Part shown: one piece after another, positions 43,987-44,903 of the stretch
Numbering within the stretch: position 1 is the first letter of the stretch
Layout: every line of letters begins with the position of its first letter
Source of the DNA: an uncultured Bacilli bacterium
GTDB lineage: Bacteria > Bacillota_I > Bacilli_A > RF39 > UBA660
Assembly: GCA_944368815.1 (NCBI GenBank)
Contig: CALVXD010000004.1
Location: forward strand, 1-55,269
Length of the DNA stretch: 55,269 nt
Direction of reading: 5' to 3'
Position numbers and translations under genes: made by a program
The notes under the pieces: model-generated
The model's database searches: none
Told to the model about the DNA's origin: nothing
What the model saw: only the letters and a program-made list of their open reading frames with translations

Positions 43987-44127
43987 CTATTTATTTATAT
44001 AAGCAAACGAGCTACTACTTCCCTCTAATCTTTCCATTTTAGCATCGTTTACTATTACTAAAGTTGCAATAGCAAGAACAATATAAAATATTATTACTCC
44101 CTTATTTTGTTTTAAAACTTCAACCAT
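43987..44127 (-). CDS. SOS-controlled 46-aa membrane peptide
   Basis: This short gene starts MVEVLKQNKGVIIFY, has one hydrophobic helix (about 11-29, VIIFYIVLAIATLVIV), and ends with a polar tail (KMERLEGSSSSFAYINK). It diverges from lexA exactly where B. subtilis has yneA, the SOS cell-division inhibitor, though it has no LysM domain. Its promoter (TTGACA-N17-TAATAT, 44156-44184) contains a full SOS box in the spacer. AGGTAGTGAG precedes the ATG. By position and control it is a candidate SOS division inhibitor. Sequence similarity to a known one is not evident. Confidence 0.7.
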   Translation of the reverse strand: MVEVLKQNKGVIIFYIVLAIATLVIVNDAKMERLEGSSSSFAYINK

Positions 44128-44155
44128 TTCTTCTCACTACCTTTCTTACAATATT

Positions 44156-44184
44156 ATATTATCACGAATAGTTGTTCGTGTCAA
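44156..44184 (-). promoter_or_regulatory. Promoter of the 46-aa gene with embedded SOS box
   Basis: TTGACA (44179-44184) and TAATAT (44156-44161) on the minus strand with 17-base spacing. The LexA site, CGAACAACTATTCG on the minus strand within the palindrome 44163-44180, overlaps the -35 edge and fills the spacer, so LexA should block RNA polymerase directly. Confidence 0.8.
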
Positions 44185-44194
44185 TAATAAATAT

Positions 44195-44229
44195 AAACAA
44201 ATGTTCTTATTTTACATAAACATTTGTTT
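44195..44229 (+). promoter_or_regulatory. Two further LexA-box-like sites at lexA
   Basis: AAACAAATGTTC (44195-44206) and AAACATTTGTTT (44218-44229) each fit the GAAC-N4-GTTC Gram-positive SOS box with one or two changes. The second overlaps the lexA -35. Confidence 0.6.
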
Positions 44230-44256
44230 GACTTTATTTTAAAAGTGTGTTATTAT
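44228..44256 (+). promoter_or_regulatory. lexA promoter
   Basis: TTGACT, 17 bases, TATTAT. The start codon is 18 bp downstream of the -10, after GGAGG. Confidence 0.75.
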
Positions 44257-44273
44257 GGATACGGAGGGATTCT

Positions 44274-44903
44274 ATGATTAAAGATAATAGAGATTTAACA
44301 AGCAAACAAAAAGAAGTATTAACTTTTATAAAAAAATTTCAAGCTGAAAATAAATATCCACCATCAGTAAGACAAATATGCAGTGCCCTAGAGTTAAGAT
44401 CGCCTGCAACAATTCATGCTCATATTCAAAATATTATTGATAAAGGATATTTAAAAAGAAGTAAACAAGGTAATCACTTAATTGAGTTATTAGTACCTAA
44501 TGAATTTGAAATGAATAACGAAGATATTGTATCAGTTCCACTTTTAGGTAAAGTAACAGCAGGAAGTCCTATTGAAGCAATTGAAATGCCTAATGAATTT
44601 TTTTCGCTTCCCACTTATCTTATACCTAAACATAAAGAAGTATTCACTCTAGAAGTATCTGGAGATAGTATGATTAATGCTGGTATATTTGATGGTGATA
44701 TTATTATTGTAGAAAGATGTAATACCGCTAAAAACGGAGAAAAAGTTGTAGCCATGAATGATGAAAATGAAGTTACTTTAAAAACTTTTTATAAAGAAAA
44801 TGGTTACTTTAGATTACAACCAGAAAATGATTTTATGAACCCAATTATTCTTAATAATGTTACTATTTTAGGAAAAGCAATTGGACTATATAGAAAATTT
44901 TAA
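44274..44903 (+). CDS. lexA: LexA repressor
   Basis: This SOS repressor has 209 residues. An N-terminal winged helix (LTSKQKEVLTFIKKF, then SVRQICSALELRSPATIHAHI) is followed by the S24 peptidase domain, with the Ala96-Gly97 cleavage site (VTAGSP), catalytic Ser132 (SGDSM) and Lys170 (VTLKTF). All are intact, so RecA-stimulated self-cleavage is expected. The ATG at 44274 follows GGAGG. It diverges from the 46-aa membrane gene and shares a LexA-site-rich control region. Confidence 0.97.
   Translation: MIKDNRDLTSKQKEVLTFIKKFQAENKYPPSVRQICSALELRSPATIHAHIQNIIDKGYLKRSKQGNHLIELLVPNEFEMNNEDIVSVPLLGKVTAGSPIEAIEMPNEFFSLPTYLIPKHKEVFTLEVSGDSMINAGIFDGDIIIVERCNTAKNGEKVVAMNDENEVTLKTFYKENGYFRLQPENDFMNPIILNNVTILGKAIGLYRKF

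Follow-up and report, generated by a model that had tools for sequence, protein, structure and literature searches.

A 46-residue membrane peptide encoded divergently from lexA in uncultured gut Bacilli, a probable SOS-induced division inhibitor

A gene for a 46-residue peptide with a single predicted transmembrane (TM) helix is divergent from lexA in an uncultured member of the Bacilli, and the peptide family to which it belongs is conserved next to lexA across dozens of genera of uncultured Bacilli from the gut. Expression of the peptide appears to be induced by DNA damage via LexA, as the position of a LexA box within its promoter suggests. It is probably a small SOS-induced membrane protein that inhibits division in the manner of the staphylococcal SosA, most likely at the septal synthase.

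A LexA box within the promoter of the peptide

The window analysed is a stretch of 55,269 nucleotides, contig 4 of a 1.27-Mb draft genome. The peptide gene (MVEVLKQNKGVIIFYIVLAIATLVIVNDAKMERLEGSSSSFAYINK) occupies positions 43987..44127 of the minus strand, with its ATG at 44127 and its stop at 43987. Upstream, on the same strand, are a Shine-Dalgarno region (AAGAAAGGTAGTG, 44135..44147) of a strength typical of the family, a -10 element, TAATAT, with TG directly before it (44156..44161), the predicted LexA box CGAACAACTATTCG (44165..44178) and a -35 element, TTGACA (44179..44184). The spacer is 17 nt long and the box, a perfect match whose position is kept in the family, fills its first 14 bases, in agreement with the first-pass annotation, which had placed a LexA box in the promoter spacer. 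As read from the sequence, the mRNA leader is about 20 nt. CGAACAACTATTCG is the sole LexA box with no mismatch both in the window and in the whole draft genome. One-mismatch boxes in this genome are unusable since they are no commoner than in the reversed control; those inspected mark no obvious SOS genes, and a looser pattern was equally uninformative there.

The divergent arrangement proposed earlier also holds. The lexA gene is on the plus strand at 44274..44903, and the identity of its product is established by the Pfam domains LexA_DNA_bind and Peptidase_S24. Its promoter (TTGACT / 17 / TATTAT, 44228..44256, plus strand) is overlapped at the -35 element by a LexA-like box at 44217..44230 (plus strand), as would serve autoregulation; loci that lack the peptide also retain this lexA-side box. 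Between the two promoters lies a second LexA-like box (AGAACATTTGTTTA, 44194..44207, minus strand), a weaker match only. It is near certain that the open reading frame (ORF), its promoter and its box are real.

A conserved and constrained protein

The lexA gene is present in 170 of the 193 genomes of the same taxonomic family, and the upstream regions were read together with loci from a named genome collection. Among named genomes, the nearest relatives are MAGs that were deposited under uncultured Bacilli, Erysipelotrichaceae and Mollicutes, several with titles pointing to animal gut. Of the 165 distinct lexA loci in the family whose upstream sequence was long enough, 127 divergently encode a single-TM peptide of about 47 aa, its ORF starting mostly 115-150 nt from the lexA start; conservation in relatives, on which the first-pass annotation had made its reading depend, is thus extensive. 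The adjacent peptide is missing at about one fifth of lexA loci. Under a strict definition (ATG, Shine-Dalgarno sequence, 38-60 aa, TM segment), such an ORF is found in 119 of 163 lexA-divergent stretches; reading the opposite strand of these stretches gives 1 of 163, and Markov simulation gives 5 of 3260 (0.15%). The promoter-plus-box arrangement appears in 3 of 825 shuffled upstream regions. Moreover, with a profile built from 64 peptides, family members are detected at E <= 1e-6 in 96 genomes, which belong to 76 genera. Only one of these 96 genomes (G144) has no full lexA hit, and its lexA, adjoining the peptide, is cut off at the end of a contig.

The peptide is under purifying selection. 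Pooled over 16 independent close pairs, synonymous differences amount to 0.38 per site and non-synonymous differences to 0.147 per site, a pN/pS of 0.39 (p = 5e-25) by Nei-Gojobori counts, which are crude on genes this short. The pattern is that of a constrained protein.

At three loci (L244, L247, L250) from a different family of the class, whose genomes are larger, lexA has a small divergent TM ORF of about 57 aa (MFNKICL.IY.YR...) that is unrelated to the peptide.

Box and peptide occur together

The LexA box is found in the promoter spacer at 114 of the 127 loci with the peptide versus 6 of the 38 that lack it (odds ratio 47, p = 8e-18). Most of the 13 remaining peptide loci share this promoter, the box in it being slightly weaker. 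The geometry is also preserved: 110 of the 120 box-bearing loci have a 17-nt spacer with the box directly after the -35 element. Loci without the peptide generally retain just the lexA-side box. Among the six box-bearing loci without an adjacent full-size peptide (L145, L159, L072, L105, L028, L148), two have it one gene further along (L072 and L105, as L301 and L300), in one it lies beyond an inserted gene at a distance of about 1.3 kb (L028, as L294), and L148 is a weak case. In L145 and L159, from two genomes, a clear LexA box precedes a 28-aa version that is essentially TM-only. Where lexA has been displaced or genes have been inserted (L187, L296, L299, L308), the peptide retains a LexA-like box of its own. 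In L300 and L301 (genomes G208 and G075), a small HTH-like ORF (MEYYTVKDLQLLTGY...) lies between the LexA box and the peptide, and a similar AlpA-like ORF precedes a likely prophage copy (L312).

A search of the 193 genomes for the promoter pattern TTGACACGAAYnnnnRTTCG, with at most one mismatch, gives about 82 sites versus 5 for the reversed control, and comparison of coordinates places about 75 of these at a lexA or peptide promoter. Other sites precede uvrB, thyX, thyA and tmk. Since uvrB is a classical SOS gene, the presence of the same box before it supports the reading of the box as LexA-controlled. The loci concerned (L304, L305, L306 and L307, in genomes G032, G173, G022 and G192) have a TTGACA-plus-LexA-box promoter before uvrB, thyX, thyA or tmk; the last three genes, found in three genomes other than that with uvrB, are each downstream of a similar ORF (...DYFFEVPASSTGKYHP...). 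These promoters raise the possibility that the supply of thymidylate is SOS-controlled in the lineage.

Comparison with known SOS membrane proteins

Members of the family have a median length of 47 aa and consist of a basic N-terminus (mean charge +1.9), one TM segment and a tail of 16-28 residues; 55 of 123 peptides have an [RK]xExLE-like motif next to the membrane. The single TM segment and an N-in/C-out topology are indicated by charge pattern and hydropathy only. The helix predicted by AlphaFold2 spans residues 9-44, with confidence at about 11-30; as a single helix it carries no fold information. The peptide has no match in Pfam or NCBIfam, and the 64 family members have no consistent match in Pfam and none to LysM. 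The earlier suggestions that a single-TM protein devoid of LysM is not YneA itself, and that it could form a new family, are therefore borne out, and the peptide would represent a family that is new and unannotated but functionally of a known kind. Matches to PHROGs are weak only; one is to a superinfection-exclusion family (E 0.001). With hhalign, comparison of the 64 peptides with the protein in the sosA position of Nosocomiicoccus gave a probability of 0.3%, the power of the comparison being weak with a single-sequence target and short proteins; under the same limits of target and length, no similarity was seen to a lexA-linked YneA-like LysM protein.

SidA of Caulobacter, which inhibits a late step of division, resembles the peptide in its very small size, its single TM segment and its SOS control, although it comes from a different phylum and is set beside the peptide by description. 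We know of no gene neighbourhood common to the two.

The closest precedent is SosA of staphylococci, which the first-pass annotation had not mentioned, rather than YneA. In Gram-positive bacteria, the known SOS inhibitors linked to lexA have a single TM segment and poorly conserved sequences, and SosA, like the peptide, is divergent from lexA, LexA-controlled and free of LysM, with one TM segment, an external C-terminus and a conserved juxtamembrane segment (PMC6851548). SosA is however longer (77 versus 46 aa), and its conserved juxtamembrane residues are absent here. YneA of Bacillus and Listeria is likewise adjacent to lexA, under a LexA box and anchored by a single TM segment, but has an essential LysM domain which the peptide lacks. 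The YneA TM segment binds TM7 of FtsW, blocking septal peptidoglycan synthesis, and models point to FtsW binding by SosA, ChiZ and SidA as well (PMC13396833). The TM segment of YneA alone localises without inhibiting, the LysM part being required (PMC13396833), so that a peptide of 46 aa must work in another way than YneA. YneA, and probably SosA too, is turned over by CtpA.

Relatives in phage contexts

Family members are also found in three genomes (G028, G189, G064) in contexts taken as likely prophages because of the neighbouring genes: a second copy lies beside DUF6291 in G028, the copy in G189 follows an AlpA-like gene, and the ORF beside the copy in G064 is presumably a phage replication protein. 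Loci L295, L297 and L312 are such relatives in likely prophages. Three IMG/VR contigs (L336, L337, L338) carry members as well, that of L338 being near a BetR-like regulator and a Rad52-like gene. Profile E-values of phage-context relatives range from 8e-12 to 1e-4, and no LexA box scoring at least 9 is present in these stretches. A further viral candidate, L339, was rejected, its match lying inside a 473-aa ORF. A scan of viral contigs for the promoter pattern returned 22 contigs with no convincing peptide in any; a tblastn search of annotated phages with a phage-type copy gave no hit, and two further viral contig scans added no contigs to those already known.

The phage-context copies may be phage division inhibitors or superinfection factors, and the helix may thus have another or wider role. 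It is conceivable, if rather doubtful, that one helix family is common to the SOS checkpoint and to phages infecting these gut Bacilli, the phage copies arresting host division without LexA control and the lexA-linked copy being either their source or a domesticated descendant.

Mode of action and alternatives

The genome encodes three FtsW/RodA-type proteins and one S41 (CtpA-type) peptidase. Together with the anatomy of known lexA-linked inhibitors and their action on FtsW, these genes are the grounds on which a SosA-like division inhibitor is proposed. LexA bound to the box in the promoter spacer would block transcription of the peptide gene; upon DNA damage, self-cleavage of LexA would allow the peptide to be made from its short-leader mRNA. 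The peptide would then insert in the membrane, with its basic N-terminus inside and its tail outside, and would halt cell division while DNA is repaired. Its target would most likely be the septal peptidoglycan synthase FtsW, contacted through the TM helix and the juxtamembrane tail, and after repair it would probably be removed by a CtpA-type protease. Against a role in division, no sequence homology to any proven inhibitor was detected in the Pfam and NCBIfam searches or in the hhalign comparisons, the TM segment of YneA does not inhibit by itself, an adjacent peptide is missing at about one fifth of lexA loci, and the phage-context relatives hint at another or wider role of the helix.

The shortness of the ORF and the location of the box in a shared intergenic region could point to a chance reading frame, the box serving just lexA autoregulation. 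We reject this reading as wholly implausible, given the recurrence of the ORF relative to simulation, its pN/pS, the co-occurrence of box and peptide (loci that lack the peptide lose the spacer box and keep the lexA-side one) and the box-peptide units apart from lexA. A LexA-controlled peptide could also depolarise the membrane and slow growth with no specific divisome target, as do DinQ and TisB of E. coli, which are LexA-controlled single-TM peptides of <50 aa (PMC3567139); the 28-aa, TM-only versions of two genomes would fit such an activity. Those systems have antisense RNA antitoxins and processed mRNA leaders, whereas here the leader is short, no Rfam match lies nearby, the polar tail is conserved, a juxtamembrane motif is present, and linkage to lexA is constant, as in known division inhibitors; although an antisense RNA of a type not yet described may exist here, an activity of this type is unlikely. 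The likely phage-borne relatives near replication or recombination genes and the superinfection-exclusion match would suit an SOS-induced membrane regulator of something else, such as a protease, a transporter or phage entry, with division unaffected. Most copies are nevertheless on the chromosome, have a LexA box and adjoin lexA, where division inhibitors classically lie, which makes such a regulator quite unlikely. A LexA-repressed inhibitor of septal peptidoglycan synthesis, acting perhaps via FtsW, is the likeliest reading.

If this reading is correct, a large lineage of uncultured gut Bacilli would have its DNA-damage checkpoint in a 46-aa protein absent from curated family libraries. The peptide would be among the simplest such inhibitors, with one helix and a short tail, and only 28 aa in two genomes, and could therefore show what a bare TM helix does to FtsW. 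Some 96 genomes, together with natural losses and possible phage versions, would provide material for structure-function analysis.
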